Assembly (NCBI GenBank): GCA_017399175.1
Contig: JAFQEE010000055.1
Span: 1-36,738 of the forward strand
Origin: Clostridia bacterium
GTDB lineage: Bacteria > Bacillota > Clostridia > Oscillospirales > Acutalibacteraceae
Direction: 5' to 3'
DNA length: 36,738 nt
A program made the translations under genes and the position numbers. The notes beneath the pieces were generated by a model. It worked only from the letters and a program-made list of their open reading frames with translations, had not been told where the DNA came from and did not search any database. Below, piece by piece: positions 7,831 through 32,699 of this stretch. Every line of letters begins with the position of its first letter. Position 1 is the first letter of the stretch.

Positions 7831-8027
7831 GTGATACTCTTAATGGAGTATCACGCAACTCTATTCGCCTACGGCGAGTTATATTGCTTCGCAGTGATAT
7901 TATGCTACGCATAGTGATATTGTCCTGCAGACAGTTTATGGCGAATAGAATATCACGAAACCCGTAGGGTTCATATCACTTTCGCAAGGCGAAAATATCA
8001 CGCTGACGACTGTCAGCATATCACTTA
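7831..8027. repeat. Hairpin array A: different stems joined by a constant ATATCAC/GTGATAT linker
   Basis: Between the EamA and GH28 genes is a run of small palindromes with different stems: GTGATACTC/GAGTATCAC, CGCCtacGGCG, TGCttcGCA, TGCtacGCA, AACCCgtaGGGTT, TTCGCaagGCGAA and GCTGACgacTGTCAGC. They are separated by one constant heptamer, written GTGATAT in the left half and ATATCAC in the right half. Those linkers are complementary, as are CTATTCGCC (about 7861) and GGCGAATAG (about 7943). The whole region could fold as one multibranched cruciform. No ORF is present. Confidence 0.75.
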
Positions 8028-14508: not shown

Positions 14509-15534
14509 TTATTTAATTGTCGGATTATCAGGAATTTTCTGAACACCAAATTCATTTTTAAGCGCTTTGTATTCCTTTGCTGTAATAGTAACAACTGAAC
14601 CGTGACGAGGTTTTAAATGGTCCATAGCAGTAATGTCACGATTAACTCGCTTGAAGTTTTCAAAGTCATTTGTCTGTTGTGTATAGAAATGACCTGTGCC
14701 GTATTCGTCCATAATCATAACCCAGGAGTCAGTACCGTTGATGTTGTACATTGTACTGCCTTCAACACCAAAATAACCGAGAGAAACGATTACGGGCTCC
14801 TCTATGTCATATGGCCCTGTAAGATTTTTTGACTTAACATAGGCTATTTTCTGTGTTTCGTCATACTTGAAATAGAGATAGTAGTAACCATTCTTTTCAT
14901 TGTAAACGATGTCAGCATCAATGCATTGAATACCTTCTTCCCAACGACCATAAAGTGGTTTTGGTTCAGTTTCAAATGTCTTGAAATCCTTTGTGTATGC
15001 GTAGTAGTGACCTGCAATATCGTTTTGGGCAGTTGAATGTGCCCAGTAAACCATATACATTTCTACTTGAGGGTCCCAAATCGCCTGTGGTGCCCATGCA
15101 CGGGTAGTGTTTGCAAATTCACCGCCAAGGTCACGGATATCAATAACGGTTTCGTCAGTCCAGTTAATAAGGTCCTCTGATTTCCATGTTACAAGAGCGT
15201 GATTTGATGTCCAACCAAGATTAGCGTCCATATCAGTTGCAATAATATAATAGCAACCGTCCTGACCTTTAAGTATATATGGGTCACGGCAACAGCCTGT
15301 GCCGAGTTTCTGCTCAATTATCGGCTTGTTGTCATTAAGCGCCTGAAATCTGTAACCGTCAGAGCTTATCGCCATATTGATTCTCTGTTCTTCAACAGAA
15401 TTACCTGTGAAATAAACGAAAAGATAAGCATCCTTTCTTGAAAGTGCAGGATAAGCATAATCATTAAAAAGGAAATTAAAAAGATTGAATGCCACCATAA
15501 CAATGGCAGTTATGTAACGAATAACAGCTAACAT
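14509..15534 (-). CDS. GH43-like five-bladed beta-propeller glycosidase with N-terminal membrane segment
   Basis: This 341-residue protein starts with an uncleaved-looking hydrophobic segment (about 1-22), so it is probably membrane-anchored or secreted. The rest is a propeller like GH43 arabinosidases and xylosidases. Candidate catalytic acids are the Asp of CCRDPYI, the Asp of IDADIVY and the Glu of GVEGSTMY, in the GH43 order base, pKa modulator, acid. WAPQAIWD and the final KPRHGSV are shared with the paralogue at 28859-29755, which lacks the N-terminal segment. This one may therefore act outside and the other inside the cell (inference). AAAGGAG precedes the ATG. Family assignment is by motif only; a related clan such as GH117 or GH130 is possible. 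Confidence 0.75.
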   Translation of the reverse strand: MLAVIRYITAIVMVAFNLFNFLFNDYAYPALSRKDAYLFVYFTGNSVEEQRINMAISSDGYRFQALNDNKPIIEQKLGTGCCRDPYILKGQDGCYYIIATDMDANLGWTSNHALVTWKSEDLINWTDETVIDIRDLGGEFANTTRAWAPQAIWDPQVEMYMVYWAHSTAQNDIAGHYYAYTKDFKTFETEPKPLYGRWEEGIQCIDADIVYNEKNGYYYLYFKYDETQKIAYVKSKNLTGPYDIEEPVIVSLGYFGVEGSTMYNINGTDSWVMIMDEYGTGHFYTQQTNDFENFKRVNRDITAMDHLKPRHGSVVTITAKEYKALKNEFGVQKIPDNPTIK

Positions 15535-15729: not shown

Positions 15730-15758
15730 TTGACATTATAGAAGGATAGTTGTAAGAT
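15730..15758 (+). promoter_or_regulatory. Predicted promoter of the surface-protein/peptide operon
   Basis: TTGACA (15730-15735) and TAAGAT (15753-15758) are 17 bases apart, about 82 bases before the start codon. GAGGGGGAG is the ribosome site. No other good promoter is seen before 23921, so it probably drives all five genes. Confidence 0.7.
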
Positions 15759-15840
15759 GTATTTTGTATAAGTATTTCCAATAATAAATAATTCTCGCTA
15801 TGAGTTATGAACACATAGTAAAAGAGGGGGAGATTGTTTT

Positions 15841-18800
15841 ATGAAAAAACAAACGAGAACACGCTTGCAAAAGGCAATGGCGCTTGTGTTGTCAGCTATT
15901 ATTGTGCTGTCAGCATTTGCAGTTATGCCTGCCAATTTGTTCCTCAAGGCAGGTGCAGCGGAAGACTCAACAATTGAGGGGAGATATGATGCTGTAAAGA
16001 ATCAGATCGAGGGATTAACTCTCAATGCAGGTTCAGCAGCAACAGTTGATTACTATTCTTATCCTGCAACTCCTAATGGTACAGATGTTGCTAATGAAGA
16101 AACAATTATTCCTGATGGCGAGTATGTTGTTACCGGTGCAGATGGAAGTGTTATGACACATGGCTTACAGGCTATCGGTACTGCAACAGAAGCTTCAGAT
16201 ATATGGGTCTTTGAGCAGCAGTCAAGCGGTAAATACCATATTTACTATAATGACGGAAACGCTACAAAGCAATATCTTAATATCAACGGTTCAAATTTGA
16301 CAGTTGCAACAACTGCACAGGAAATTGTTGTACGAGCTACATTGGGTGGTGTATTAACCGTTGGTGACGGCAACGGTAACTACATCAATTTTTCGGATAA
16401 CGCTGTAGTTGCTAATGCAGATGCTACAAACCTTAATCTTTACAAGGTAATAAGAACAGAAGCAAATCCTAATCCAACACTGTTAAGTGACATTAATGAT
16501 ATTGAATCAGGTAAGGAATATATTATTGTAAACACCACAAACGACGGTGTAATGAATCCTGACCCTAACAACTTGACATTCAGTGGAGCAGTTTCTTCAG
16601 ATTCGCCAACATGGACTTTCGTTGCGAGTGGCGATGGATATAAGCTTAAATTTAACGACAACGGCACCGATAGGTACTTATACCTTTCTGACCCCGCAGG
16701 TGCAGCAGTATTGGCAACAGAATCAGAAGCTAAAGCATTTACGCTGGCGTTTGAGGCTCAAGGCGTGACCTTTTCACATTATGTTGCATTTACAAGCGAT
16801 TGTGACGCTGCTGTAGATACAAAGTTTTACATTCAAAAGGATCAGAACACCATCGCTGTAAGCGGAACAAGAGATAGTAACAGACGATATCACAGAATTT
16901 ACATGCCCCCAACAGAGGCTAGCGTAAAAATCACACCATTTATACCAACACCATCAAGTTATGATGAAGTTCCTCCTATTGAAGAGGGCGGTTATGTTGT
17001 ATATCATAACGGTGTAATTATGGGACGAGATGCAGTTACAGCTGATGCTACAGGTGTTAATGAAAAAGAGGTAACTGTTTCAAACAGTACAATTAACGCT
17101 CTCGTAATGGATCAGTATTATTTTGAACATGTTGAGGGTAGCCTTTACAATATTTCAGTAGCTAAAGCTGAAAGCAACGGAAGTATTATATATCAGTACT
17201 TACACTTTAACGGTGAAGAAGGATACCTTACATTTTCATCGGCAGAAGAAGCTGTTATAGTTTATGCTAACCCGGACGGTACGGTTCAAATTTTTGACCG
17301 GGATTCATCTCAGAAAATTAACCATTACTCAACAAATCTTTTCAGTTCTTATGGCAGAAACAATGCGGCTAATCCTGACGGCAACGAATCACTTACACTT
17401 TACAGAAACCCATCCGCAAGTAAAGGTATGGTTGATAAGACAGAGCTTTATAACGCACTTAACGAAGCTATTGAATATGCTCCTGATAACTATACAGAAG
17501 CAAGTTATAATAAGTTTTTACAGACATTAGAAGATAGTCTTGATATTTATTACGACGGAAGCGTAGTGGATGAAAAAATAGTTACTAAAACTGTTTATAA
17601 TATCAGAAACGCTATTGTTAATCTTGAAAAACAAAAAGACGAACCTGACTATCGTTCATTCCCTGCAACACTTTATAAGTATGGTTATAATCCATCTGCA
17701 ACAACCGCTAATGCAAAATATTCAGCCGGCGGTGCTTTGTTCAATGCTCAGACATATGCTTCAATGGAAGATATAATCAGAGCAGATGAAAATCTTATGA
17801 CACAAATTAAGGCTACAATCGGCTATCACACAAATGCATGGGCTGCTGGTGAGGCGGACATTGCTCTTGATAAAGCAATTACAGCTTATGCAGAAATCTA
17901 TTCTCTTGCATTCACCGGTAATACATTATCATCAGGCGGTACAAATGTTACTGATTTCCAGAACACTGCCTGGAATGTATGGACCAAATCAAATACAGGT
18001 TCCGATAGCGGTGGCGCTTCTGTTCAAGGTCTTTTCAGCGCACTTCTTAATGATGGTAATCCAGCAGACCACGCTCCATATAGCCAGTTGGCATATGGTA
18101 ATGTTTCAAATTATTTATCTGGTTATTATAATACTAACACCTTCTCACTTTCAATTACTGTAGGTGGTTCAGCACGAAATGTTACACTTGCTCCACTTCA
18201 AGGCATTAGTGTTCACGTTAACGATATTTTCACAAGAGAAAAAGTTCTTGTTGATGGTTCAACAACAGAGTATTCAAAATATTATTGGGATTTTGACTTC
18301 CCGTTCCAGAAAACAACTGTAAATGGTGTCAATACGTATAAATACTCAAGTAAAGATACATCATACTTATTCCAGGCTGAGTTTAATGATGCTGAACAGA
18401 CTGCGACAGCACAGTTGACTCCTGGGTCCGGAAGCACAGGTTTCTTCCCATTCAACAACCAGTTGAATTCTAACTCTAACCCAAGCGCCTCTGTTTACCA
18501 CTTTGGTATGAGCTTCTCAACAGACTTCTATATTCCTGTCACAGGTTACTATTTAGGCAATGAAGGTACAGATATTGTATTCAATTTCTCTGGTGACGAC
18601 GACGTTCTTGTTTATATTGACGATGTTCTCGTTCTTGATAACGGTGGTCTTCACGCTGCTCGTACAGCATCAATCAACTTTACAGATGAATCTGTAAGCT
18701 ATCAGTATGCTATGAACGTTGGTCCTGCAAACGCTACTGTAGAAAGTTCAACTGAAAATGCTGTAACATATAAATATGGAAACACAAGCGGTCTTACAGG

Positions 18801-20952
18801 TGACGAACTTGCAGCACTTGAAAAACTTCACGAAGTTCGTACAGACGGTGGATACCATACATTCACATTCTACTACCTTGAAAGAGGTTCAAACGAATCT
18901 AACTGTGAAATCGAATTCAATATCCAGCAGGCTTCTAACCACGTTCTTCTTAATGACGAAACATTAGTTGTTGACTACGGTCTTCCTGTTGAATATGACA
19001 TTAAGGCAAACGACAAAGTTGACGAAATCGAAGGTCTTGGTTATAACTACAAAGGTATAGTAGAGGGTAATAATGAAGTTCCTTCAGTTGTTATCTTCAA
19101 TGAACCTACTGACCTTGTTAGAACATTCGCTTCTAAAGACGATGTTCTTGATGTTCAGGGACTCAAGTACGGTACTGCAACAATGAGTGGCGACGGTCTC
19201 GTAACATATAATCCTAACACAATGAATATGACAGGCAGAGATTACTTCTATTCTTGTGCTGAGATTACAGGAGACCCTACTTACACAACAAACTATTATC
19301 AGTATGAACGTGCTATCTTTATTCCGGCAACTACAATCTACTACGAAGATAACTTCGGTGTAGACATAATCTTTAAGGATGGTTCAGGTAATGCTAAATG
19401 GACAACAGATGGCGATGTAAACGCATTTGCTGATGCTAAACAGGCTGCTGACCTTGTAGACGACGTTATGGCAAATCCATACGGATATGACCCGATTTAT
19501 TCAGGCGCAGACACAACTAAGGATTATACAATGTACAGCGGTTTCTCAGCACAGAAGGTAACTGTAGGTAAGAATCTCGCTACAAATCCGACAGTTGAAT
19601 TCACATTTACAGGTACAGGATTTGACATTATCAGTATGACTGATAGTACAACAGGCGCATTCTATGTTGACATCTTCGACACAAACAACAAACAGGTTGG
19701 CAAGAAGATGGTAGTTGATACATACTACGGTTGTTCATACGGTCAGCTTTATGCAGATGAAAACGGTGAAGCAACTCTTACTGAAACAGATACTCCACTT
19801 TATAGAAGTGCTGTAAATGAAGCAATAGCAAAAGAACCTACATATTTTGCTGTTGACGGTATGGGATATACAGAAACACCAACATATTATGATGCAAATT
19901 GTAATCTTACAGAAACAGAAACCGAAAATCCTGCATACGCTTATGCATACGGTTGGGTAACTACGGACAATGCTGAAGGTCTTTATCAGATTCCTGTAAT
20001 CAAGAAGACAGACCTTGCTTATGGTACATATAAAGTTGTAATTACTCCAATGTACTCAAGATTGTTTGATAATACAGGAAAAGGACAGTTTGATGTTTAT
20101 ATCGATGCTATCCGTATTTATAATCCTGCAGGTAAAGATGATAATATTGAATCATCAATTCTTACTGATTATAAGTACGATAATGAGTCTTATCCAAACT
20201 ATCTTACAATCAAGGATATTATTATCGGTGCTGACTCACTTTCAAAGGATTCAGCAACTCAGGGTGTTGTTTTCATCGACGGTATTGCCGCTCTTGACAA
20301 CGACCTTGAAAAACTTAAACTTGCAGGTCCTAACAACGAACTTTATCTTGCAAAAGGTCAGGCTGTTGCATTTGAAATTTGGGCAACCGCAATTCCTGAT
20401 GAAGTTCAGCTTGGTGTAAAGAGCGTCAAGGGCAAACCTACACTTGGTATCACATATAACGGAAATACAGTTGAAAAGGATATCAACACCGCAACTGAAA
20501 TGAATTACATTATTAACAACTTGCTTCCTGCAAATGGTAAACTTGAATGGTCAAAAGTTGTTGTAAACGGTGAACCATATTACAGAACTGATACTATTGT
20601 TATTCAGAATTTGTCTGATGACTCAAGCATTCTTTCTCTTACAAATATGAAGTGGACATTTACTGGTGTTGGCCAGCACGGTCACTATGAAACACAAGAT
20701 GCAGAACCTGTTATGATGTTTATGGCAAGAAGAACAACAGTAAGTGATGCTTATGCTATGATGTCAAACGATAATGTTCCGAATGATGGCGAAACAGATA
20801 ATAACGCAGGTTCAGAAATCATTCTTGGTGACAACAACAATACAAATGATACTAATGACACTAATGACGAAAATCAAGGAGTGCTTACATTCATTCAGAG
20901 AATTATCGAGGCAATTACAAACTTCTTTAAGAAGATTTTCGGATTAGTTTAA
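15841..20952 (+). CDS. Giant secreted surface protein with fibro-slime domain
   Basis: A 1703-residue protein begins with a signal peptide (residues 1-40, ending AGAA). Three modules of about 130-150 residues each start with an I-x-x-G-x-Y-x-V...G-x-M pattern near residues 90, 220 and 379. A FIVAR-like helical segment follows (about 530-598). The fibro-slime domain (about 870-1030) is marked by TGFFPFNNQ, FSGDDDVLVYIDDVLVLDNG and FYYLERGSNESNCEIEFNI, in the style of PA14-like cell-surface domains. A beta-rich part follows, then an Asn/Asp/Thr spacer and a C-terminal amphipathic stretch, LTFIQRIIEAITNFFKKIFG, that may bind membrane or wall. No LPXTG motif is present. It is the first gene of the peptide-modification operon; adhesion or matrix formation is inferred. 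Confidence 0.85.
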   Translation: MKKQTRTRLQKAMALVLSAIIVLSAFAVMPANLFLKAGAAEDSTIEGRYDAVKNQIEGLTLNAGSAATVDYYSYPATPNGTDVANEETIIPDGEYVVTGADGSVMTHGLQAIGTATEASDIWVFEQQSSGKYHIYYNDGNATKQYLNINGSNLTVATTAQEIVVRATLGGVLTVGDGNGNYINFSDNAVVANADATNLNLYKVIRTEANPNPTLLSDINDIESGKEYIIVNTTNDGVMNPDPNNLTFSGAVSSDSPTWTFVASGDGYKLKFNDNGTDRYLYLSDPAGAAVLATESEAKAFTLAFEAQGVTFSHYVAFTSDCDAAVDTKFYIQKDQNTIAVSGTRDSNRRYHRIYMPPTEASVKITPFIPTPSSYDEVPPIEEGGYVVYHNGVIMGRDAVTADATGVNEKEVTVSNSTINALVMDQYYFEHVEGSLYNISVAKAESNGSIIYQYLHFNGEEGYLTFSSAEEAVIVYANPDGTVQIFDRDSSQKINHYSTNLFSSYGRNNAANPDGNESLTLYRNPSASKGMVDKTELYNALNEAIEYAPDNYTEASYNKFLQTLEDSLDIYYDGSVVDEKIVTKTVYNIRNAIVNLEKQKDEPDYRSFPATLYKYGYNPSATTANAKYSAGGALFNAQTYASMEDIIRADENLMTQIKATIGYHTNAWAAGEADIALDKAITAYAEIYSLAFTGNTLSSGGTNVTDFQNTAWNVWTKSNTGSDSGGASVQGLFSALLNDGNPADHAPYSQLAYGNVSNYLSGYYNTNTFSLSITVGGSARNVTLAPLQGISVHVNDIFTREKVLVDGSTTEYSKYYWDFDFPFQKTTVNGVNTYKYSSKDTSYLFQAEFNDAEQTATAQLTPGSGSTGFFPFNNQLNSNSNPSASVYHFGMSFSTDFYIPVTGYYLGNEGTDIVFNFSGDDDVLVYIDDVLVLDNGGLHAARTASINFTDESVSYQYAMNVGPANATVESSTENAVTYKYGNTSGLTGDELAALEKLHEVRTDGGYHTFTFYYLERGSNESNCEIEFNIQQASNHVLLNDETLVVDYGLPVEYDIKANDKVDEIEGLGYNYKGIVEGNNEVPSVVIFNEPTDLVRTFASKDDVLDVQGLKYGTATMSGDGLVTYNPNTMNMTGRDYFYSCAEITGDPTYTTNYYQYERAIFIPATTIYYEDNFGVDIIFKDGSGNAKWTTDGDVNAFADAKQAADLVDDVMANPYGYDPIYSGADTTKDYTMYSGFSAQKVTVGKNLATNPTVEFTFTGTGFDIISMTDSTTGAFYVDIFDTNNKQVGKKMVVDTYYGCSYGQLYADENGEATLTETDTPLYRSAVNEAIAKEPTYFAVDGMGYTETPTYYDANCNLTETETENPAYAYAYGWVTTDNAEGLYQIPVIKKTDLAYGTYKVVITPMYSRLFDNTGKGQFDVYIDAIRIYNPAGKDDNIESSILTDYKYDNESYPNYLTIKDIIIGADSLSKDSATQGVVFIDGIAALDNDLEKLKLAGPNNELYLAKGQAVAFEIWATAIPDEVQLGVKSVKGKPTLGITYNGNTVEKDINTATEMNYIINNLLPANGKLEWSKVVVNGEPYYRTDTIVIQNLSDDSSILSLTNMKWTFTGVGQHGHYETQDAEPVMMFMARRTTVSDAYAMMSNDNVPNDGETDNNAGSEIILGDNNNTNDTNDTNDENQGVLTFIQRIIEAITNFFKKIFGLV

Positions 20953-20979
20953 AACAGTTGGAAGGAGGATAAATAAGAA

Positions 20980-21213
20980 ATGAAAAAGACTTATATTAAA
21001 CCGCAAATTGCATATGAATCATTCCAACTTTCAACAAGTATTGCTTCAAGTTGTGCACTGTTAGGTTCACAACAAGCTCAGTATGTTTGTCCTGTAACAG
21101 ACCCGGATACAGGGTTCTCCATCTTTACTGAACTTTGTGATGTTGTTCCGGCAAATGGAATGACACCTTGCTATGATGTTCCTTCAGAAAACTGGATGGT
21201 ATTCTCATCATAA
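20980..21213 (+). CDS. 77-residue four-Cys peptide, candidate RiPP precursor
   Basis: It begins MKKTYIKPQIAYESFQLSTS, an opening of the KKxYxKPxxxxExFxLSxSIA type that resembles leaders of small Clostridia peptides. The rest is a polar core with Cys at 25, 37, 53 and 64 and it ends in NWMVFSS. There is no signal peptide or membrane segment. It lies 27 bases after the giant surface gene, with AAGGAGG 11 bases before its ATG. A lipoprotein, an HPr-kinase-like protein and a radical SAM/SPASM enzyme follow, the partners expected for a ribosomally made, modified peptide. A strong hairpin after its stop could raise its expression over those enzymes. The leader/core boundary is not clear: no GG site, though ASSC at 22-25 may mark it. 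Confidence 0.65.
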   Translation: MKKTYIKPQIAYESFQLSTSIASSCALLGSQQAQYVCPVTDPDTGFSIFTELCDVVPANGMTPCYDVPSENWMVFSS

Positions 21214-21224
21214 ATAAATAATAT

Positions 21225-21258
21225 AACGGAGTTCGTCATAGCGATGGTGAACTCCGTT
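21225..21258 (+). terminator. Attenuator-like hairpin between peptide and modification genes
   Basis: AACGGAGTTC and GAACTCCGTT form a perfect 10-bp stem, extended by CAT/ATG around AGCG. Only a weak GCTTTTGGG follows, so it should act as a partial terminator or mRNA stabiliser. This arrangement is common after precursor-peptide genes. Confidence 0.6.
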
Positions 21259-21275
21259 GCTTTTGGGATTGAATT

Positions 21276-22034
21276 ATGAAACATTTAAAAAAGTTTTTTG
21301 TACTGCTTCTTTGTTTGATAACTCTTGCAGGGCTTTGTGCCTGTAATAAAGATGATGATACAAACAAAGGGAATGTTACAAATAAAGATGTTACTACAAC
21401 AGAAGATGTTGCTACAAAAGAAAATATAACAAATAAAATTCCTGTTATAACCGAAGAAGTCAAAGTTGAACAGGTTTCCGGTTTTGAGGCAAAAGAGTCA
21501 GACGGTTCTCAAATCGGTGTTATCGTTGATAGTTGGCTTAAAGTAATCGGTATAGGTGAAAAAAATGGTGTTTTAAGCGTTTTTGTGAGAAATATTTCTG
21601 ACGAGGATATTCAGTATGCTCTTTTAAGTGTTATGACAGGTGACGGTAGAGCTGAATTCCCGATTTCCACACTAACAGCAGGTGCAAGTGCAACTCTCCG
21701 TTGCACTAATGGTTATGTATTTGATGAAGAAGCAGTTTATCATAGCTGGAAAGTAAAAGACAAGGCAAATTTTAACAAAGCGCTTTCCTGTTATCCTGAT
21801 GTTTTTGAAATTGACGGTGCTGATGGCTTTATTTCAATAAAAAACATTTCCAAGAAGAATATAGAAGGAAAAATTTACATTTACTATAAAAATATAACTG
21901 ACGGAGTTTATGATGATGGTGTAACATACAGAGCGTATGTTGATGGTCTTAAAAAAGGTGAAAAGGTACAGGTTAGAACCCAACACTATTTAAAGGACTC
22001 AAGTCATATTTTGTTTGTGACCTATGCAGAGTAA
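21276..22034 (+). CDS. Lipoprotein of unknown function in the peptide operon
   Basis: This 252-residue protein has a signal sequence MKHLKKFFVLLLCLITLAG followed by LCAC, in which the last Cys is the likely lipidated residue. An Asn/Thr/Lys-rich tether (about 26-60) follows. The folded part has two beta-rich halves with similar phrases, VLSVFVRNISDEDIQYALL and FISIKNISKKNIEGKIYIYY, suggesting two FxxIxxxxN-type immunoglobulin-like repeats. It lies between the peptide and the kinase-like gene and overlaps the latter by 11 bases, so it belongs to the operon. It could be an immunity protein, a surface receptor or an assembly factor for the giant protein or peptide. No known family is recognised. 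Confidence 0.7.
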   Translation: MKHLKKFFVLLLCLITLAGLCACNKDDDTNKGNVTNKDVTTTEDVATKENITNKIPVITEEVKVEQVSGFEAKESDGSQIGVIVDSWLKVIGIGEKNGVLSVFVRNISDEDIQYALLSVMTGDGRAEFPISTLTAGASATLRCTNGYVFDEEAVYHSWKVKDKANFNKALSCYPDVFEIDGADGFISIKNISKKNIEGKIYIYYKNITDGVYDDGVTYRAYVDGLKKGEKVQVRTQHYLKDSSHILFVTYAE

Positions 22035-22860
22035 GAAATACAAGTTTTTTGATACAGTTATCCAGGTTCTGACTCCTGAAGAATTTGTTGATATAGAACC
22101 ATATATCAACTTTTTAAGCGATGAAGAACCTGATTGTACAGTTACATTTGAATATGTGAAACACCTGCCGGCATTGGCTGAAAACGTCACTACGGACAGT
22201 GAAATAAGTTTTAAGGTCGATGGTAATAAGAGTATGTGCTGGTACAGAAATCACGGTAAAGAAGGTTATTTTGCCTGTCGTATTTTCGATGGCGAAAGCT
22301 ATCGTGTTCAGGTGCTTGAGGAACATCGTGGTAAGCTGTGGAACGGTGTCATATTTAATCTGTTGGGCTTTGAAGAGATTATCGCAAAGCGTAATGGTGT
22401 TGTTTTGCATGCTTCTGTTGTATTGAAAAATGGCAAAATGATTCTTTTTACGGCTCCTTGCGGTACGGGCAAGTCAACTCAGGCTGACTTATGGGAAAAA
22501 TACGCAGATGCAGAAATTGTTAATGGTGATAAAGCCCTTGTCAGTCTGAAGGACGGGACAATTTTTGCGGGAGGTCTTCCTTTTTCAGGCTCGTCAGATA
22601 TCTGCAGGAACATTTATGCACCGTTAGCTGCTGTTGTTTGCCTTGGTCAGGCAAAAGAAAATTTAATCAGAAAAATAAGTGTGAGAGAGGCTCTTGTTGC
22701 GTTATTACAGGGGAATTATCGTTCAGGTATAACAGATGAGTCTTCTCAAAAAACAATAGATATATTGGAAAATCTTTGCAGTACAGTTCCTGTGTACAGA
22801 CTTGATTGTCTGCCGGATAAGACTGCAGTTGAATGTCTTGAAAAGGAGTTGAGATTATGA
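22024..22860 (+). CDS. HPr-kinase/phosphorylase-like P-loop protein
   Basis: This 278-residue protein has a Walker A loop TAPCGTGKST at about residues 142-151 and VLHASVVLKNGKMILF before it, the standard strand pair of the HprK-like C-terminal domain; VNGDKALVSL supplies the acidic partner. The N-terminal 120 residues are unlike the HprK N-domain. Similar stand-alone proteins occur in RiPP clusters, and in some lasso-peptide clusters they phosphorylate the C-terminal Ser of the precursor. The local peptide ends in two serines, which makes phosphorylation a testable idea. Its ATG lies inside the end of the lipoprotein gene, and its stop overlaps the radical SAM start (ATGA), so translation is coupled. 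It could instead act as a peptide carrier. Confidence 0.75.
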   Translation: MQSKKYKFFDTVIQVLTPEEFVDIEPYINFLSDEEPDCTVTFEYVKHLPALAENVTTDSEISFKVDGNKSMCWYRNHGKEGYFACRIFDGESYRVQVLEEHRGKLWNGVIFNLLGFEEIIAKRNGVVLHASVVLKNGKMILFTAPCGTGKSTQADLWEKYADAEIVNGDKALVSLKDGTIFAGGLPFSGSSDICRNIYAPLAAVVCLGQAKENLIRKISVREALVALLQGNYRSGITDESSQKTIDILENLCSTVPVYRLDCLPDKTAVECLEKELRL

Positions 22861-23921
22861 GCGCAGAACCAAGATTATCAGCATATCTCCACTCAAGGGC
22901 AGTAGAAAAAGGAATTCCTATTTCAGGTACTTTTGAATTGACATCCCGATGTAATTTCCGATGTGAAATGTGCTACGTTCATGATGAATGCCACAGCAGA
23001 GATAAGCTTTCAACAGAGCAGTGGTTAAGTCTTGCTGAGGATGCAAAAAAAGCAGGTACTCTTTTCCTTTTGCTTACAGGTGGCGAGCCTCTTTTGCGTG
23101 AAGATTTCCCATACTTGTATACAGAGTTAAAGAAAATGGGCTTTATGGTGTCAATTAACACTAACGGAAGCTTGTTGCATAAACATTTTGAGCTGTTTCA
23201 AAAAAATCCGCCGTCAAGAGTAAATATTTCTCTTTATGGTGCGGATAACGAAGCTTATGAAGGACTTTGTAAAATAAAAGCATTTTCGCAGGTGTTGGAT
23301 AATGTGAAAATGCTCAAGGAAATGGGAATTTCAGTTAAGTTTAACACGGTTTTTACAAATCGAAACAACCACCAGTATAAGGAAATTATAGATATTGCGG
23401 AATCGCTTGCTATTCCATTAAGTACAACCGCATATGCCTATCCTCAGGTGCGTCTTGACAAAGATTTTGGTGAAAATTCAGGCAGAATGTCACCTCTTGA
23501 AGCGGCTCAATGCACGATAAATTGCGAAAAATATCGTTTCCGTAACAGGGATTATTCAGAAAGGGCAAAAAAAATTCTTGAAGAACCCGATGATGAAAAA
23601 TGTGACAAAGTGTCTTGTCGTGCAGGCAGAGCAGCATATTGGATAACAAGTGAGGGATTAATGCAACCCTGTGGCTTATTACCAAATATTCAGATAAATG
23701 TGTTTGAAGAAGGCTTTGACAGTGCTTGGCAACAACTTGTAAAACGGGTTAAGGAAATCCGTCTGCCTAAAAAATGTGTAACCTGCCAATATTCAAAAAT
23801 TTGTAATGCTTGTGCCGCTATGTGCTTTGCTGAAACAGGACATTTCGATAAGGTTCCTGATTATATTTGTCAATTAAGCAAAGGTATTTACGAATTAACT
23901 GAAAAGGACTTAAAAGAGTAA
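22857..23921 (+). CDS. Radical SAM/SPASM peptide-modifying enzyme
   Basis: This 354-residue protein has the SAM [4Fe-4S] motif C32-x3-C36-x2-C39 in SRCNFRCEMCY, followed by the GGE motif LTGGEPLLREDF. The SPASM region begins near CRAGRAAYWITSEGLMQPCG and ends with KCVTCQYSKICNACAAMC and a final Cys in YICQLS, enough Cys for two auxiliary clusters. SPASM enzymes near small peptides typically make thioether or C-C crosslinks or epimerise residues. AAGGAG precedes the ATG, and the start overlaps the kinase-like gene by 4 bases. The likely substrate is the four-Cys peptide (inference). No separate PqqD/RRE protein is visible; the N-terminal 25 residues are too short for one. Confidence 0.88.
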   Translation: MSAEPRLSAYLHSRAVEKGIPISGTFELTSRCNFRCEMCYVHDECHSRDKLSTEQWLSLAEDAKKAGTLFLLLTGGEPLLREDFPYLYTELKKMGFMVSINTNGSLLHKHFELFQKNPPSRVNISLYGADNEAYEGLCKIKAFSQVLDNVKMLKEMGISVKFNTVFTNRNNHQYKEIIDIAESLAIPLSTTAYAYPQVRLDKDFGENSGRMSPLEAAQCTINCEKYRFRNRDYSERAKKILEEPDDEKCDKVSCRAGRAAYWITSEGLMQPCGLLPNIQINVFEEGFDSAWQQLVKRVKEIRLPKKCVTCQYSKICNACAAMCFAETGHFDKVPDYICQLSKGIYELTEKDLKE

Positions 23922-23951
23922 AGTGAAACAATACGAAAGTAAAAAGACAAT

Positions 23952-23980
23952 AAAAGCTCGGCAGAAATGCCGAGCTTTTT
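23952..23980. terminator. Bidirectional terminator between the radical SAM and ABC operons
   Basis: AAAGCTCGGC-AGAAAT-GCCGAGCTTT is a near-perfect stem with T-runs on both strands. It ends the peptide operon from the left and can end the ABC operon from the right. Confidence 0.85.
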
Positions 23981-23981
23981 T

Positions 23982-24041
23982 AGCGTACAAAGTACATTTA
24001 GCTTACCGCAAGGTGAATTTAGCTGACGAAGTCAATTTAAC
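23982..24041. repeat. Hairpin array B: three mini-hairpins with a constant ATTTAGC linker
   Basis: GTACaaaGTAC, TTACCgcaaGGTGA and TGACgaaGTCA follow one another, each followed by ATTTAGC or ATTTAAC. The stems differ but the linker is constant, as in array A. The last linker contains the stop codon of the ABC transporter gene, so the array reaches exactly to the end of a coding region. Confidence 0.65.
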
Positions 24042-25836
24042 TTTTATATTTCTCTGCCTGCAAATTGAACATATATGCATATGTGCCGCCAAGCTCCATT
24101 AATTCCTGATGGCTACCGCTTTCAATAATGCGACCTTTTTCCATAACATAAATTCTGTCCGCGTTAACTGTGGTTGAAAGTCGGTGAGAAATGAAAATAA
24201 CAGTTTTCTTGTCAGCAGCCTCAATCATTGCCTGATTAAGATTATATTCAGCAACAGGGTCAAGGTTTGCGCTTGGCTCGTCAAGAATAACATAAGGACA
24301 ATCCTTATAGAATGCTCTTGCAATAGCAGTTTTTTGTGCTTCACCGCCGGAGAACATAACACCCTCGTCGTCAAATTCTCTTAAAAGTTCGGATTTTATT
24401 CCGTTTTTAAGCTCCTTGTTAAATCCGCTGTGCTTTAAAGCATCCCATACCTTTTCTTCGTCGGGATTAATGTCAAGTGCCACATTTTCACCAAGACTGC
24501 ATGAAAATATCTGAAAATCTTGGAATACCGCTGCAAAGCGGTCACGGTGGGAGTCTGCAGTGGCATTTTTGATGTTTTCGCCGTCAATAAGTATTTCACC
24601 CTCAGTAGCATCATAAAGCCTTAATAACAGGTTTGTAAGGGTTGTTTTGCCTGCACCGTTGTAGCCCACAAGAGCAATCTTCTCATAAGGCTTGATTGTA
24701 AGGTTAATGTCCTCAAGAGTAGGCTTGTCGTTGTTAGGGTAGGTGAATGAAAGATTTTTAATGGTAATTTCTTTAGGTTCAGTTTTCTTTGCCTCTACTC
24801 CGCCGTTTTTAATCTTGAAATCAGCATTCAAAAATTCGCGGTACTTGTCAATCATTTTTCCCTGTTCCGAAAAACGAGCCAACGCCCATATTGTAAGGAA
24901 TTGGAAAGACATAGCAACAGCATGTGCACCATTAAAAGTTGCCACAAAATCACCTGCAGAAAGGTCGCCCTTAATCAGTACACAGTAACCGAGATAAAGA
25001 GGAAGAATGAACATAAATCCAAGTCCCTGAACACCAACCTTTTGTGTACAGTTAAGTGCCGAAATCTTGTTCCAGTACTTCTTCTGATTATTGATAACAT
25101 CATCAGCAGCATCATTGTATCTGTCAATGAGAAGTGGAGAAATGTTGTTCATTCTCACTTCCTTTGCATAGTCCTGCAAATAGAAAACACGCTGAAAATA
25201 GTCGGCGCGTCTGTGATATTTTGCATTGTCAACTCGTCTTTCCATCATAAGAGTACCAACACGCTTACTGATAGGAAGAAAAACGCAAATCACAACAAGG
25301 ATAATCACAAGACACCAAGGGTCAATGGTGAAAAGCACCGAAGAAACTGTCACAAGTGAAATAATGTGACCGATATACATTCTCACAAGTCCCAGAAGAT
25401 TTTGTATATTACCCGATGATGACTCAATGGTGAGAATGAAATTGTTATAGAATTCAGGATTGTCATATGACTCAAGGTCAAGACTTTTTGCCTTGTCATA
25501 AAGCTTCTGATTAAGACCGTAATAAAGTCTTTCTCTTTCCATATTCCAATAGAACTCTCTGAATAACCAGGAAATTACAGTTGAACCGATAAGTATAAGT
25601 GCAATAACACCTACTGCATAGAAAATTCTGTTAAGGTCAGTTCCCTCTGTAACAACATCAATGATATATTTAACACCGATAACACGGATAAGGTTGTTAG
25701 GTAATATCATCAGAAGTCCCCACATAAGCTCACCAAGGACAAGCAGGGGAGATACGCTGAACATAAGTCGTACAAAGAAGAAAATGTTAGAAGCCATTGA
25801 GTGATTAGTTTTTTCTTTTTCCTTTTTCTTAAACAT
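24037..25836 (-). CDS. ABC half-transporter (permease + ATPase), second of a pair
   Basis: This 599-residue exporter-type protein has an N-terminal six-helix membrane domain (about 30-310) and an ATPase domain. It shows Walker A LVGYNGAGKTTL, Q-loop in VFQDFQIF, a signature MFSGGEAQKTA, Walker B with the catalytic Glu in YVILDEPSANLDP, and the H-loop in FISHRLS. No C39 peptidase domain is present, so it would not process a double-glycine leader itself. The ATG at 25836 has AGGTGAG 5 bases before it; an in-frame GTG two codons earlier is less likely. It overlaps its upstream partner by 8 bases, so the two probably form a heterodimer. The signature begins FSGG rather than LSGG, so the two ATP sites differ slightly. 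Confidence 0.9.
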   Translation of the reverse strand: MFKKKEKEKTNHSMASNIFFFVRLMFSVSPLLVLGELMWGLLMILPNNLIRVIGVKYIIDVVTEGTDLNRIFYAVGVIALILIGSTVISWLFREFYWNMERERLYYGLNQKLYDKAKSLDLESYDNPEFYNNFILTIESSSGNIQNLLGLVRMYIGHIISLVTVSSVLFTIDPWCLVIILVVICVFLPISKRVGTLMMERRVDNAKYHRRADYFQRVFYLQDYAKEVRMNNISPLLIDRYNDAADDVINNQKKYWNKISALNCTQKVGVQGLGFMFILPLYLGYCVLIKGDLSAGDFVATFNGAHAVAMSFQFLTIWALARFSEQGKMIDKYREFLNADFKIKNGGVEAKKTEPKEITIKNLSFTYPNNDKPTLEDINLTIKPYEKIALVGYNGAGKTTLTNLLLRLYDATEGEILIDGENIKNATADSHRDRFAAVFQDFQIFSCSLGENVALDINPDEEKVWDALKHSGFNKELKNGIKSELLREFDDEGVMFSGGEAQKTAIARAFYKDCPYVILDEPSANLDPVAEYNLNQAMIEAADKKTVIFISHRLSTTVNADRIYVMEKGRIIESGSHQELMELGGTYAYMFNLQAEKYKS

Positions 25837-27655
25837 TTTCACTCACCTCGCTTTCGCCCTTATAGCTTGAAGCCTGTAAAGTGAACATTTTGCTGTATTC
25901 ACCATTCTGTGCCATAAGCTCTTGGTGTGAACCTGATTCAAGGATTGTTCCGTTACCTAAAACGAAAATTCTGTCAGAAAGAACAGCACTTGAAAGTCTG
26001 TGCGAAATATAGATAACAGTTTTGTTTTTAGTAACCTCAATCAGGTTTTCATACATCTTGTATTCAGCAATAGGGTCAAGTGCCGAGCTTGGCTCGTCAA
26101 GAATTGCGATTTCAAAATCCCGTGCAAAAAGTCGAGCAGCAGAAACCTTTTGATTTTCACCGCCTGAAAGACCTGCACCGTCAATTTCAAATTCGCGTGT
26201 AAGAACTGTGTCCGCACCGTTAGGAAGACTTTGAATTTTCTCCCATACACCGCTTTGACGAAGTGCCTTTTCAGCAATTTTCTTTTCCTCGTCACTACAT
26301 TCGTGACACATAATGTTTTCATTTACTGAAATTGCAAAGTTCTTATAATCCTGAAAAACAGTTGCAAAAGCATTACGAAGTGACGCAACATTATACTCTT
26401 TTATATTTATTCCGTTGTAAAGAACCTCGCCTTCTTGGGGGTCATAAAAACGCAAAAGCAGTTTAACGAGAGTCGATTTACCTGCACCGTTAATACCAAC
26501 AACAGCAATAGTTTCACCACGGTTAATTTTGAATGAAACATTTTTAAGGATTGTTTTGTTTGTATCGGGATAACCGAAAGTAACATTTCTAAATTCAATG
26601 CTTTCGAATTCTCCTGCGTCTTTTCCACCGTCTGTGATTTTTGGTTCATAGTCAAAGAAATCACGCAAATTCTGGAAAAAGAGTGCCATCTGTGAAAGCT
26701 CGTCAAAGCCCTCTGCAATACTCATCGTGGAGTCGCGGACAGAGTTTATTGACGAAAGCACAACGGAGAAAGAAGAAATTGAAAGTGCCTTTGTAAAAAT
26801 AAATTGATATCCTGCAAAGGCGTAAGTGCCGATAATCGGTATAAAATCGCTGAAAAGGGAACTGACCATACTGTAAAAGAAAAGCTTAGGTCCGTATTTT
26901 TTAAGTATTACAACATTAGCATCAATAGCAGCCTTGAATCGACCTATAAGCACTGCGAAAATGTTCGATGTTCTCATATCCTTTGAGTATTCTTTTAAGA
27001 ACATTGTACGCTGAATATATGCCTTGATTCTGTTGTTTGTTGTCATCTCAAGGTCACGCTTGTACACAGCCTTGCTCTTGTAAATTTCAATAACAAAAAC
27101 AAGTGTGACAGGTAACAGGAACAACAGATACATAGGGTTGATTACCGTAACAGTAGTAACAACGCAAATAAGTGCGATAATACCGCCGATAATCGCAGCA
27201 ACGTCCCAGCATATCAGGTCAAAATAACTTGATGAAAGCACAAGGGTGGCTCTTTGATACTTGTCATAAAATTCAGGGTTTTCATAACAGCTTACATCAA
27301 GCTGAACAGCCTTCTGGAATATCTTGTTATTAAGCTTTTTAAGTACAATTTTGGTTGAAATAAGCCTTGTTCTTTCCGCAAAAGCAGAAATAACATTCAC
27401 AAGAAAATATACACCAAAGAAAAGCAAAAGATATGTAAAATATGTTTTGAAGTCAGCATCGCCGTCAATGATGCTTAAAAGAACTTTTAAAAACAGAATA
27501 TTCTGGACATACATTGATAAAACCTTGTTGGAAATTTCCGTAACAAGATAGCCGATTAAAAGTCTTTTGTCAGCTTCCCATATGAGCTTGAGTGCAAATA
27601 TTGCGTTTTTGAAAATGGGAACTTTGACAGGCTCGTGAAGTTTAATCCACCTCAT
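25829..27655 (-). CDS. ABC half-transporter (permease + ATPase), first of a pair
   Basis: This 608-residue partner of the preceding transporter has membrane helices at about 35-300, then an ATPase with VVGINGAGKSTL (Walker A), VFQDYKNF (Q-loop), LSGGENQKVSAARLF (signature), IAILDEPSSALDP (Walker B and catalytic Glu) and YISHRLSS (H-loop). Both signature motifs of the heterodimer look functional. The pair faces the radical SAM operon tail to tail and lies downstream of a micro-gene (27963-28052), so export of one or both peptides is a reasonable idea, not shown. GGAGAA precedes the ATG. No strong promoter is seen between 27656 and 27900, so some readthrough from the micro-gene promoter may be needed. 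Confidence 0.9.
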   Translation of the reverse strand: MRWIKLHEPVKVPIFKNAIFALKLIWEADKRLLIGYLVTEISNKVLSMYVQNILFLKVLLSIIDGDADFKTYFTYLLLFFGVYFLVNVISAFAERTRLISTKIVLKKLNNKIFQKAVQLDVSCYENPEFYDKYQRATLVLSSSYFDLICWDVAAIIGGIIALICVVTTVTVINPMYLLFLLPVTLVFVIEIYKSKAVYKRDLEMTTNNRIKAYIQRTMFLKEYSKDMRTSNIFAVLIGRFKAAIDANVVILKKYGPKLFFYSMVSSLFSDFIPIIGTYAFAGYQFIFTKALSISSFSVVLSSINSVRDSTMSIAEGFDELSQMALFFQNLRDFFDYEPKITDGGKDAGEFESIEFRNVTFGYPDTNKTILKNVSFKINRGETIAVVGINGAGKSTLVKLLLRFYDPQEGEVLYNGINIKEYNVASLRNAFATVFQDYKNFAISVNENIMCHECSDEEKKIAEKALRQSGVWEKIQSLPNGADTVLTREFEIDGAGLSGGENQKVSAARLFARDFEIAILDEPSSALDPIAEYKMYENLIEVTKNKTVIYISHRLSSAVLSDRIFVLGNGTILESGSHQELMAQNGEYSKMFTLQASSYKGESEVSENV

Positions 27656-27704
27656 AAATTTTCTCCTTTTTATATAATGTAACTGAACACCTTAAGTAAC
27701 TGAC

Positions 27705-27885
27705 AAATCATAATTTATCGGGATGAATTATTCACGCGTAGTGGCAGGCTTCCACGTCTGCGTTTTCCCTCCCTCAACGAGGGAGGTGGCATTTTCGTAA
27801 GAAAATGCCGGAGGGAGTTACTCTCCCCAGTCACTCGCAAAGATGGGGCGGAATGGTGTTCTATTTATCCCTACAAACTCCAATT
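27705..27885. repeat. MITE-like repeat, copy 4 (divergent inside)
   Basis: The ends AAATCATAATTTATCGGG and CCCTACAAACTCCAATTT match the ends of copies 1-3 in the inverted orientation. The interior differs: it has CCTCCCTCaacGAGGGAGG and GGCATTTTCgtaaGAAAATGCC palindromes instead of the CTTCACGAAG type. Shared ends with swapped interiors suggest a non-autonomous mobile element. It separates the micro-gene terminator from the ABC operon. Confidence 0.65.
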
Positions 27886-27904
27886 TGTCCTACTTTCTGA
27901 AATA

Positions 27905-27932
27905 AAAAAGCCGTAGGTACTTTTACCCACGG
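27905..27932 (-). terminator. Terminator of the micro-gene
   Basis: CCGTaGGTA and TACCcACGG pair with one mismatch around CTTT. On the minus strand CTTTTTTATT follows. It lies 31 bases after the micro-gene stop codon. Confidence 0.75.
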
Positions 27933-27962
27933 TGACGAAATACAATATCCTAAATGATAAAA

Positions 27963-28052
27963 TCAATCGCAAGAACAGGAGTTGTACCGAAGATAGGGGC
28001 AGAAAGAGTTGAACGTATTGAGTTTTCTGTTGTCATACCAACGGTTTGTCAT
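27963..28052 (-). CDS. Micro-gene: 29-residue peptide upstream of the ABC pair
   Basis: An isolated transcription unit of about 200 bases has a near-consensus promoter (28105-28133), AAGGAGG at 28063-28069, an ATG 10 bases later, a short ORF and a terminator. This reading frame gives MTNRWYDNRKLNTF... and ends SCSCD, with Cys at 18, 26 and 28. A second ATG at 28036 opens another frame of 28 residues (27950-28036; begins MTTENSIRSTL, ends AIDFII). That frame has codons more like neighbouring genes (ACA, GAA, TCA, GTT, CTT) but lies 26 bases from the ribosome site. Which is translated cannot be settled here; a frameshift joining them is also possible. The place before two exporters suggests a secreted or modified peptide. 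Confidence 0.4.
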   Translation of the reverse strand: MTNRWYDNRKLNTFNSFCPYLRYNSCSCD

Positions 28053-28104
28053 TTGATTTCTGCCTCCTTGCTTAAAATAATATTTGTTGTGAGTAACTTT
28101 GTTT

Positions 28105-28133
28105 AGAATATCACAGTAGTATTTCGTTGTCAA
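28105..28133 (-). promoter_or_regulatory. Predicted promoter of the micro-gene
   Basis: TTGACA (28128-28133) and TATTCT (28105-28110) are 17 bases apart on the minus strand. Transcription would start about 46 bases before the micro-gene ATG. Confidence 0.7.
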
Positions 28134-28172
28134 GAAAATTATGGAAAAAAATAAGGCTTTAAGGCATAAAAA

Positions 28173-28190
28173 AATCGCTCCTGAAGAGCG
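28173..28190 (-). terminator. Small hairpin terminator upstream of the micro-gene promoter
   Basis: On the minus strand CGCTC-TTCAG-GAGCG is followed by ATTTTTTTA. It is a second stop for the transcript coming from 28.65 kb and insulates the micro-gene. Confidence 0.6.
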
Positions 28191-28227
28191 TAATAAACAG
28201 ATTATTTAAAAAATGATTATAAAAATG

Positions 28228-28288
28228 AAATAACCCTCGGAGCCGATGTTTCTTTACACACCTTTCACTGACTCGGAGGGTTATTTCT
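28228..28288 (-). terminator. Strong terminator of the candidate RNA
   Basis: GAAATAACCCTC and GAGGGTTATTTC form a perfect 12-bp stem, continued by GAG/CTC after one mismatch. On the minus strand ATTTTTATAATC and then TTTTTT follow. Confidence 0.75.
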
Positions 28289-28645
28289 GTTCACTCTTGA
28301 TATCTAACATCTTTTTATCTACCTCTCATTCTACAGATTTTTCTTTGTCTTCCTATACCTTGATTTTCAACTCCACTACACTCTTTACAGTCATCAATAT
28401 TCTCGAAAAGCGAGACCCTTTAATGCATCAGAACCTAATTTTCAATTTTTGGAAGACTTTCGACCGGTTCTTCATTTTAAAAACAAATTTTAGTTTACAA
28501 GCATTTATCTATATAAACTTTTAAATCATTTTCGTCTGTGCTGCTTGCTACACTTAATTTACTTCTTTAAAACTAAACTCTGTTTTCTTTTAAAGAACCT
28601 TTGTGATTTACCTGTACATTGGAATCACCGTTTCCTTTCTGTGTC
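28228..28645 (-). ncRNA. Candidate non-coding RNA of about 415 bases
   Basis: The minus strand between the promoter at 28649-28677 and the terminator at 28228-28288 has no reading frame with a plausible start, ribosome site and length. The longest conspicuous minus-strand frame (about 18 residues, VASSTDENDLKVY...) lacks a start codon. The 5' end carries an AAAGGAAACGG sequence followed by ATG-TAC-AGG-TAA, a three-codon ORF. I recognise no tmRNA, RNase P, SRP, 6S or OLE signature. It lies between the micro-gene and the GH43 operon. It may instead be a decayed gene. Confidence 0.4.
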
Positions 28646-28648
28646 TAT

Positions 28649-28677
28649 AATATAACACAGAAAAAAGAGTTTTTCAA
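28649..28677 (-). promoter_or_regulatory. Predicted promoter of the candidate RNA
   Basis: TTGAAA (28672-28677) and TATATT (28649-28654) on the minus strand are 17 bases apart, followed by ATAGACACAGAAAGG. Confidence 0.65.
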
Positions 28678-28763
28678 TATGTAATTTTGTACAAAGTTGA
28701 CACTTTTCTTTTATTTAATACGGAGATTTTGTATATTGTGCCAACAAAACTTTTAAAAATCTA

Positions 28764-28820
28764 TTGACTTTTAATAAAAAATTTGATATGCTAATTATGT
28801 TGGGCGTTTAAAAAACGCCC
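28764..28820 (+). promoter_or_regulatory. Promoter immediately followed by terminator
   Basis: On the plus strand TTGACT (28764-28769) and TATGCT (28787-28792), 17 bases apart, would start RNA near 28799. A GGGCGTTT-AAA-AAACGCCC hairpin (28802-28820) with TTATTTTT follows at once. Any transcript would be only about 30 bases, or would run antisense into the GH43 gene if termination failed. The stem alone may serve as a transcriptional barrier after that gene. Confidence 0.35.
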
Positions 28821-28858
28821 TTATTTTTATGTCACAAAATACAATATAATAATTAATT

Positions 28859-32623: not shown

Positions 32624-32699
32624 TGGTCGAGATGACAAGACTCGAACTTGCGGCATCCACGTCCCGAACGTGGCGCGCTACCACCTGCGCTACATCTCG
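32624..32699 (-). tRNA. tRNA-Pro (CGG anticodon)
   Basis: The minus strand folds as a full cloverleaf: acceptor CGAGATG/CATCTCG, D-arm GCGC...GCGC, anticodon stem CCACG/CGTGG around TTCGGGA (anticodon CGG, complement of 32664-32666), T-arm GCAAG-TTCGAGT-CTTGT, discriminator A and an encoded CCA (32624-32626). It reads proline CCG codons. It is a single-gene unit with its own promoter and terminator. No integrated element is seen at its 3' end. Confidence 0.95.

Follow-up and report, generated by a model that had tools for sequence, protein, structure and literature searches.

A cassette of five genes in the genome of a Clostridia bacterium (family Acutalibacteraceae, order Oscillospirales) joins the gene of a giant surface protein to that of a small peptide with four cysteines, followed by the genes of a lipoprotein-like protein, an HprK-like protein and a radical S-adenosylmethionine (SAM) enzyme of the SPASM type. 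It lies in a stretch of 36,738 nucleotides (contig JAFQEE010000055.1 of assembly GCA_017399175.1, positions 1 to 36,738 of the forward strand), here called the window; the contig is one of 72 of a 2.1-Mb genome. The linkage of the peptide and giant genes within such cassettes was confirmed in relatives. The single parts are of known kinds; we know of no precedent for their combination or for the surface partner. We hold the chances to be evenly balanced that the peptide is of the ribosomally synthesized and post-translationally modified (RiPP) type, crosslinked by the radical SAM enzyme, phosphorylated, and the dedicated partner of the secreted giant; both the chemistry and the partnership we infer from the genes.

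The cassette and its recurrence

An initial annotation of this DNA, made from the sequence alone, had placed all genes correctly, and the order that it gave holds. On the plus strand there follow one another the genes of the giant (1703 aa, 15841..20952), the candidate precursor peptide (77 aa, 20980..21213), the lipoprotein-like protein (252 aa, 21276..22034), the HprK-like protein (278 aa, 22024..22860) and the radical SAM enzyme (354 aa, 22857..23921), the identities of the last two proteins being graded separately below. The spacing is tight, with two coupled overlaps, as had also been noted: 11 nt between the lipoprotein-like and the HprK-like gene and 4 nt between the latter and the radical SAM gene. 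The peptide has the leader KKTYIKPQIAYESFQLS, the four conserved Cys, the pair Cys-Tyr and a C-terminal F-x-S. In the giant, residues about 1040-1610 (18958..20670) form the region that the cassette giants have in common, from here on the shared region.

A profile built from nine peptides of the window type (class A) matched, at E ≤ 1e-3, 30 places in 20 of 398 genomes of the family. Four of these places lie at a contig start (L058, L121, L122 and L124; L and G numbers are our handles for loci and genomes), leaving 26 that can be evaluated upstream. A giant gene stands directly upstream on the same strand in 19 of the 26 (the window, L040, L044, L045, L047, L049, L052, L053, L056, L109, L110-L116, L119 and L123), and all 19 giants match the window giant directly; in L047, L052, L110, L111 and L123 the last 4 nt of the giant gene also belong to the peptide gene. 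Four more places have the giant gene downstream within the cluster (L062, L117, L118 and L126), that of L118 running off the contig and giving a weak match. Eight of the 26 had seeded the profile, with their linkage known beforehand; the 18 others comprise 11 linked upstream, four linked downstream and three unlinked.

Besides the window's own place the profile found 13 further ones in 394 genomes of the order (E ≤ 1e-3) and one in 391 genomes of the class (E ≤ 1e-4), the family, order and class samples overlapping one another. The cassette-bearing genomes span at least four families of one order. At the order level the shared region was found upstream, on the same strand and within 2.4 kb in seven of the 13 places (L132, L133, L134, L135, L141, L142 and L144), in a retest of 19 loci with a panel of giant queries from which the loci's own proteins had been removed.

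For the enzymes, 26 of the 30 family places with at least 3 kb of readable sequence downstream were counted, HprK-like and radical SAM genes being told apart by motif and by inspection of the tables. A radical SAM gene was present in the downstream neighbourhood of 19 and an HprK-like gene in that of 18. Neither is nearby in L112, L119, L120, L121 and L124, each of whose genomes encodes the enzyme elsewhere; L112 and L119 are giant-peptide pairs with no enzymes nearby. A close radical SAM relative (E ≤ 1e-55) is encoded in all 20 of the 20 peptide-bearing family genomes. Conversely, 14 of 124 family genomes encode the close radical SAM enzyme, ten of them together with a peptide of class A or class B (see below), and none of the 124 has a peptide match without the enzyme when genomes are compared by handle.

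The proposal that peptide, HprK-like, radical SAM and surface genes should recur together in relatives is therefore borne out. The initial annotation had added that the link would fail if relatives carried the peptide and the enzyme without the surface gene; this does not apply to 23 of the 26 evaluable family loci, which have the giant gene, and does apply to two of the three others, L055 and L125.

A second peptide family (class B), which shares its leader and its last residue with class A, occurs on contig 25 of the window genome and elsewhere. Its search gave 11 places, two of them class A; five of the remaining nine were seeds of the profile. In nine of nine the class B peptide gene directly follows a giant gene, whose product matches the window's shared region more weakly (in L060 the match lies 2.8 kb before the peptide). 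A tree of 47 radical SAM rows has a supported branch (97/98) of 24 rows. Of these, 23 come from class A loci, and the remaining one, L043, begins at a contig edge in G207, a genome with its class A peptide on another contig. Five of seven class B rows fall into another supported branch.

Conserved features of the peptide, the giants and the enzymes

The four-Cys peptide of 77 residues was confirmed as described. Among 42 class A peptides all 42 keep the Tyr of the YxKP leader and 40 its Pro; the four Cys are present in 42, 40, 41 and 40, and 40 have the pair Cys-Tyr close to the C terminus. Of 49 complete peptides of both classes 48 end in Ser, a count that leaves out L109, a duplicate of L007, and the damaged or partial L040, L061 and L143. 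The same holds for 38 of 758 other proteins called in the loci, or for 10 of 91 when only those shorter than 120 aa are taken. An artefact of the profile was considered and rejected, eight of the nine complete matches that stop short of the last profile position (L123, L136, L137, L138, L139, L140, L141, L142 and L144) ending in Ser. The peptide alignment gave only chance-level matches with NCBIfam. A small precursor with a conserved leader adjoining a modifying enzyme, the general mark of RiPP clusters, is present.

The giant had been called a fibro-slime protein. Its match to PA14 (27.8 bits, cut-off 24; residues 876-949, 18466..18687 on the plus strand) stands, and that to Fibro_Slime (TIGR02148) remained below the cut-off (41.5 bits, cut-off 45); the label fits only a subset of the surface proteins. 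Fibro_Slime scored above its cut-off in seven of the 20 peptide genomes; these 20 genomes contain ten Fibro_Slime genes, at most one per genome, and of the nine not cut at a contig edge eight directly precede a peptide gene. Near relatives match the window giant broadly and most others only in the shared region, which has no match in Pfam and which, the first Met aside, contains all columns invariant across 22 giants. In front of it the 22 giants scanned have GH2 (in five), PA14 (five), pilin-type Ig (six), VWA (four), ricin-type lectin (four) or GH88 modules (one). The giant family is thus modular, with a common rear and differing front domains. The fibro-slime domain was accordingly discarded as the defining part, PA14 being present in just five of the 22, other modules in others, and the shared part lying further back. 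The giants were collected by BLAST, so their having something in common partly reflects how the set was made; the identity of the common part does not. By eye, the giants begin with signal-peptide-like segments, as does that of the window, and many end in an amphipathic helix-like tail; in the window this is FIQRIIEAITNFFKKIFGLV (20878..20949, plus strand), a helix in a low-confidence model.

The radical SAM/SPASM identity of the last protein was confirmed (Pfam Radical_SAM, 95.9 bits; C32-x3-C36-x2-C39 plus SPASM cysteines). All 31 cassette radical SAM proteins of a set selected by CxxxCxxC retain the SPASM cysteines; L049, which has the motif but a mis-called start, is outside this set. Start codons of the open reading frames (ORFs) in the loci are sometimes mis-chosen (L062, L049). 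Against the maturase families the window enzyme scored below every cut-off: AlbA 72/850, SkfB 67.7/300, PapB 62.3/340 and StsB 66.3/625 bits.

The name HprK-like can be kept for the fourth protein in a loose sense. It has the P-loop APCGTGKST and D169 and matches ScmC (23.7 bits, cut-off 125) and HprK_rel_A (22.3 bits, cut-off 200) weakly; Pfam gave no match, and the alignment of the HprK-like proteins no meaningful match among sequences of solved structures. H129 and D169 are present in 28 of 28 HprK-like proteins, which were selected by GK[ST]. With a low-confidence model (mean predicted local distance difference test, pLDDT, 50.8) Foldseek found phosphoenolpyruvate carboxykinase and HprK/P at E values of 2e-5 to 1e-3. 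HprK-like matches occur in 117 of 250 family genomes and also in a lasso-looking locus (L072, see below), and the gene alone is therefore unspecific. In L055 a single frame of 661 aa encodes both HprK-like and radical SAM parts, and in L076 HprK-like and PqqD parts are likewise joined in one frame.

The third protein has no Pfam match and recurs in the cassette; its designation as a lipoprotein goes back to a start read by eye, and family matches were sub-threshold only. Of 53 loci searched with a small seed set, 11 have a PqqD-like gene within 9.5 kb, including L040, L045, L047, L060 and L140, and PF05402 proteins are encoded in L045 and in L039, which is on contig 25 of the window genome. 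Since PqqD-like proteins occur near some cassettes and on contig 25, recognition of the leader in trans is possible.

The initial annotation had one promoter drive the whole row. A site TTGACA-17-TAAGAT (15730..15758, plus strand; 10 of 12 positions) is present upstream, and that it drives the cassette is plausible. It is just plausible because such sites occur at chance frequency, 29 having been found in 8.5 kb where shuffling predicts 27.6. A strong RNA hairpin is predicted directly 3' of the peptide stop (21224..21259, plus strand; −19.6 kcal/mol, z −3.84). Hairpins were predicted at this position in 11 of 11 cassettes folded (the window and ten others), with z-scores for the peptide-lipoprotein gap of −1.5 to −6.3, and −3.6 or lower in nine of the 11; their sequences differ among cassettes. 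The hairpin may be a barrier that keeps the giant and the peptide abundant and the enzymes scarce.

Neighbouring genes and related loci

A terminator-like hairpin (23952..23979, minus strand) is predicted between the cassette and a pair of ABC (ATP-binding cassette) genes that lie tail to tail with it on the minus strand (24037-25842 and 25829-27655). The initial annotation saw in these a pair of exporters belonging to the system and fed by a micro-gene unit. The unit exists: a micro-ORF of 29 aa, MTNRWYDNRKLNTFNSFCPYLRYNSCSCD (27963-28052, minus strand), with a strong Shine-Dalgarno sequence, a predicted promoter-like site (28133-28105) and a predicted terminator-like hairpin (27932-27911), both on the minus strand. 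Neither part of the claim was sustained, and both were dropped from the system. Among the peptide loci whose gene rows were inspected, two adjoining ABC genes were seen only in L007, where ribosomal protein S9/L13 genes lie between the peptide cassette and the pair; L040 has a single ABC gene beside the giant and L121 one ABC gene 4.8 kb from the peptide. The micro-ORF had no match under E 1e-3 in 149 other family genomes, and none of 19 weak matches had a relative of the window ABC genes within 1.5 kb. The ABC pair and the micro-ORF are probably unrelated to the cassette. The region 27600-28860 contains six terminator-like sites where 0.5 are expected, and the micro-ORF could encode the leader peptide of an attenuator or be translated into a very small Cys-rich product. 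The FCPYxxYN look-alikes of L147 and L151 are at chance level.

Two window genes on the minus strand, 14509-15534 and 28859-29755, which are 40% identical, flank the cassette together with the ABC pair and may be duplicated glycosidases (GH43-like by eye). The window also contains an Rfam Gut-1 RNA (7856-7925, plus strand; 55.4 bits, gathering 50) and a tRNA (32627-32699, minus strand).

Several loci resemble the cassette in part. On contig 25 of the window genome (L039, 8196-17656) two HprK/radical SAM cassettes flank two proteins with ParA-type matches, one of them also matching Wzz, and an ABC gene; the second of these cassettes has a third precursor-like peptide (MKKTYEKPN...DPSWS), which ends in Ser. 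Cassettes of a radical SAM gene, a KKxYxAP-type peptide gene and an HprK-like gene recur in L064 (6378-8726), L071 (6555-8914) and L075 (8040-10164); the peptides have 89-94 aa and a last residue other than Ser, an ABC gene is close, and L064 and L071 have a PqqD-like gene. L072 (7628-8893), from the same genus and lasso-like by eye, has genes for an HprK-like, a PqqD-like, a 152-aa and an ABC protein and for a 40-aa YKAP peptide. In L125 (5022-7999) a class A peptide is accompanied by PqqD-like, HprK-like, radical SAM and lipoprotein-like genes, with no giant gene; a 139-aa protein adjoining the peptide is signal-peptidase-like by eye, and the surroundings resemble a polysaccharide locus.

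Proposed function of the peptide and its rivals

The gene linkage, the conserved residues and the predicted hairpins are observed; the steps that follow are built on them and are put conditionally. The giant would be a secreted, carbohydrate- or adhesion-directed surface protein made together with the peptide, the hairpin after the peptide gene allowing both to be formed in larger amount than the enzymes. A PqqD-like protein, encoded elsewhere in the window genome, would bind the YxKP leader; the SPASM radical SAM enzyme would crosslink the peptide via some of its four conserved Cys, and the HprK-like kinase would phosphorylate a serine, most probably the C-terminal one, which is chosen here because it is the best kept Ser of the peptide. 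After removal of the leader and export the peptide would act with the shared region of the giant and with the lipoprotein, and would fasten or mature the giant at the cell surface. We consider it possible, with distinctly less confidence than the proposal as a whole, that this makes the RiPP a structural part of the cell surface, in which a crosslinked, C-terminally phosphorylated peptide, made in step with a modular giant that binds or cleaves glycans, fastens or matures this giant via the shared region. Such a display system would replace sortase or S-layer anchoring, the N-terminal modules being interchangeable.

Parts of this logic are known from other systems. In the SynChlorMet cassette the HprK-related ScmC stands beside the radical SAM proteins ScmE/ScmF. 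The window proteins match its families TIGR04249, TIGR04250 and TIGR04251 weakly and below the cut-offs (23.7/125, 68.9/400 and 61.5/400 bits), and we know of no surface giant in that cassette. The clusters of paeninodin-type lasso peptides contain the kinase PadeK, which belongs with the HprK-like kinases, and a discrete RiPP recognition element (RRE), B1. The paeninodin precursor ends in Ser like the cassette peptide, and this C-terminal residue is where PadeK places its phosphate (PMC9266682). An HprK-like kinase is common to both systems, and so is the Y-x-x-P leader (PMC13381572, from which the family link is partly taken as well). A C-terminal Ser together with an HprK-like kinase, as in paeninodin, is indeed what the cassettes present, in 48 of 49 peptides and with the HprK-like gene in 18 of 26 places. 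The cassette differs by its radical SAM/SPASM enzyme and by the surface giant in the row, and no lasso cyclase (macrolactam synthase) or B2 protease was found among the nine window proteins scanned, the relatives lying outside the scan.

The other comparison is with the linear polyphosphorylated peptides (LPPs), for which PMC13381572 describes a precursor leader YxxPxVLxHQxIxFETxxS, close to the YxKPxIxFESFxLS of the cassette, and an HprK-like kinase with an RRE. The core set given there comprises a signal-peptidase-like gene, a nucleoside triphosphate (NTP) transferase and an MsbA-like exporter with kinase and RRE (PMC13381572). The window cassette contains no peptidase, NTP transferase or RRE of this set; MsbA-like ABC genes adjoin it but do not recur, and the signal-peptidase-like protein seen by eye occurs only in L125. 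Polysaccharide loci are the setting of LPP clusters (PMC13381572) and, by eye, seemingly that of L125 too, which possibly links the cassette system with the LPPs. The term radical SAM is absent from the main text of that paper, and no surface giant, a feature of the cassette, appears in its sections 6 and 7 (PMC13381572). The leader Ser of the LS motif was considered as an LPP-like kinase site and judged less likely, since unlike the terminal Ser it is not kept, being A, V or T in L112, L117, L058, L111 and others. By analogy, then, the combination of kinase and YxxP leader matches paeninodin and the LPPs, and the radical SAM enzyme and the surface giant do not. In the open-licence literature we found no description of a cassette of fibro-slime and radical SAM or of HprK and radical SAM genes, in agreement with the initial annotation, which knew no such class; one genome-mining paper mentions an HPr kinase with lasso clusters.

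Several observations weigh against the proposal of a modified peptide serving the giant. Three of the 26 family loci have no giant gene nearby: L125, L055, in whose genome a giant gene is on another contig (L177) with no peptide adjoining, and L120, counted so because its 453-aa neighbour did not hold up as a giant on retest. At the order level the shared region lies immediately upstream in just seven of 13 places; in L137 and L140 a giant gene does stand upstream, with only a weak match about 7 kb off, in L136 and L138 the match is 6.5-7.5 kb away on the downstream side, and L139 and L143 gave no shared-region match. L117, L118 and L126 are without an HprK-like gene near the peptide, four of the 14 radical SAM genomes are without an intact peptide match (G056, which carries a damaged peptide gene, G107, G112 and G123), and six class A radical SAM rows lie outside the main branch (L062, L125, L136, L138, L142 and L144). 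The peptides of L064, L071, L075 and L076, which have an HprK-like gene and no giant, do not end in Ser, so that the terminal Ser tracks the giant, not the kinase; and the LPP kinase LppK targets an internal core Ser (PMC13381572). Gln replaces the first P-loop Gly in eight of 28 HprK-like proteins, the match to the HprK fold comes from a poor model, and the structure predicted for the shared region has a mean pLDDT of 34.6, with three sequences in the alignment. The window cassette has no PqqD-like gene, no transporter recurs at the peptide loci, and the peptide-lipoprotein gap of L044, about 23 nt and excluded from the folding, is too short for such a hairpin.

The strongest rival, which we regard as unlikely though worth keeping in mind, is that the peptide is an ordinary secreted antimicrobial RiPP of the sactipeptide/ranthipeptide type, the giant holding or digesting the target surface and the lipoprotein conferring immunity. 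RiPPs of this type are common products of SPASM radical SAM enzymes paired with Cys-rich peptides, and a lipoprotein adjoining a RiPP can be an immunity protein. The four Cys are conserved, and a small four-Cys peptide beside a SPASM radical SAM enzyme is common to the cassette and to the AlbA, SkfB and PapB type clusters; however, the family scores are far below the cut-offs, and to our knowledge a kinase and a surface giant are not part of those systems, nor are antimicrobial precursors tied to a giant surface protein. Here the giant is linked in 23 of 26 places, giant-peptide pairs occur with no enzymes nearby (L112, L119), and no exporter recurs.

If large surface genes are frequent in these genomes, the RiPP cassette might merely have come to lie among them, a linkage with no joint function. 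The three family loci with no giant agree with this; the position of the giant gene directly upstream on the same strand, overlapping in five loci and with two peptide classes, does not, nor does the fact that genomes with at most one Fibro_Slime gene have it next to the peptide in eight of nine evaluable cases. We think this improbable. Slightly less probable still is that the enzymes modify the giant itself, with the peptide as a guide or chaperone that brings them. Giants with the shared region adjoin the peptide gene and the genes overlap, as this would have it, but the leader motif, the four Cys and the terminal Ser are on the peptide (the giants were not searched for such motifs), and the giants start, by eye, with signal-peptide-like segments. 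The least probable of all is that the peptide is an intercellular signal controlling expression of the surface protein. A small Cys-rich RiPP-like peptide does accompany the surface gene, but no sensor or regulator that recurs was recognised in the gene rows, whose neighbours were not annotated systematically.

RiPPs have been studied mostly as secreted antibiotics and cofactors. The recurrence of the gene set suggests that modified peptides are put to a new use at the cell surface. It would bring together in one system two known logics, the HprK-like phosphorylation of peptides with a YxxP leader and SPASM radical chemistry, and the analysis points to a large protein region that has no Pfam family. 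If the proposal of a modified peptide partnering the giant is true, RiPP chemistry would gain a role in building the cell surface.

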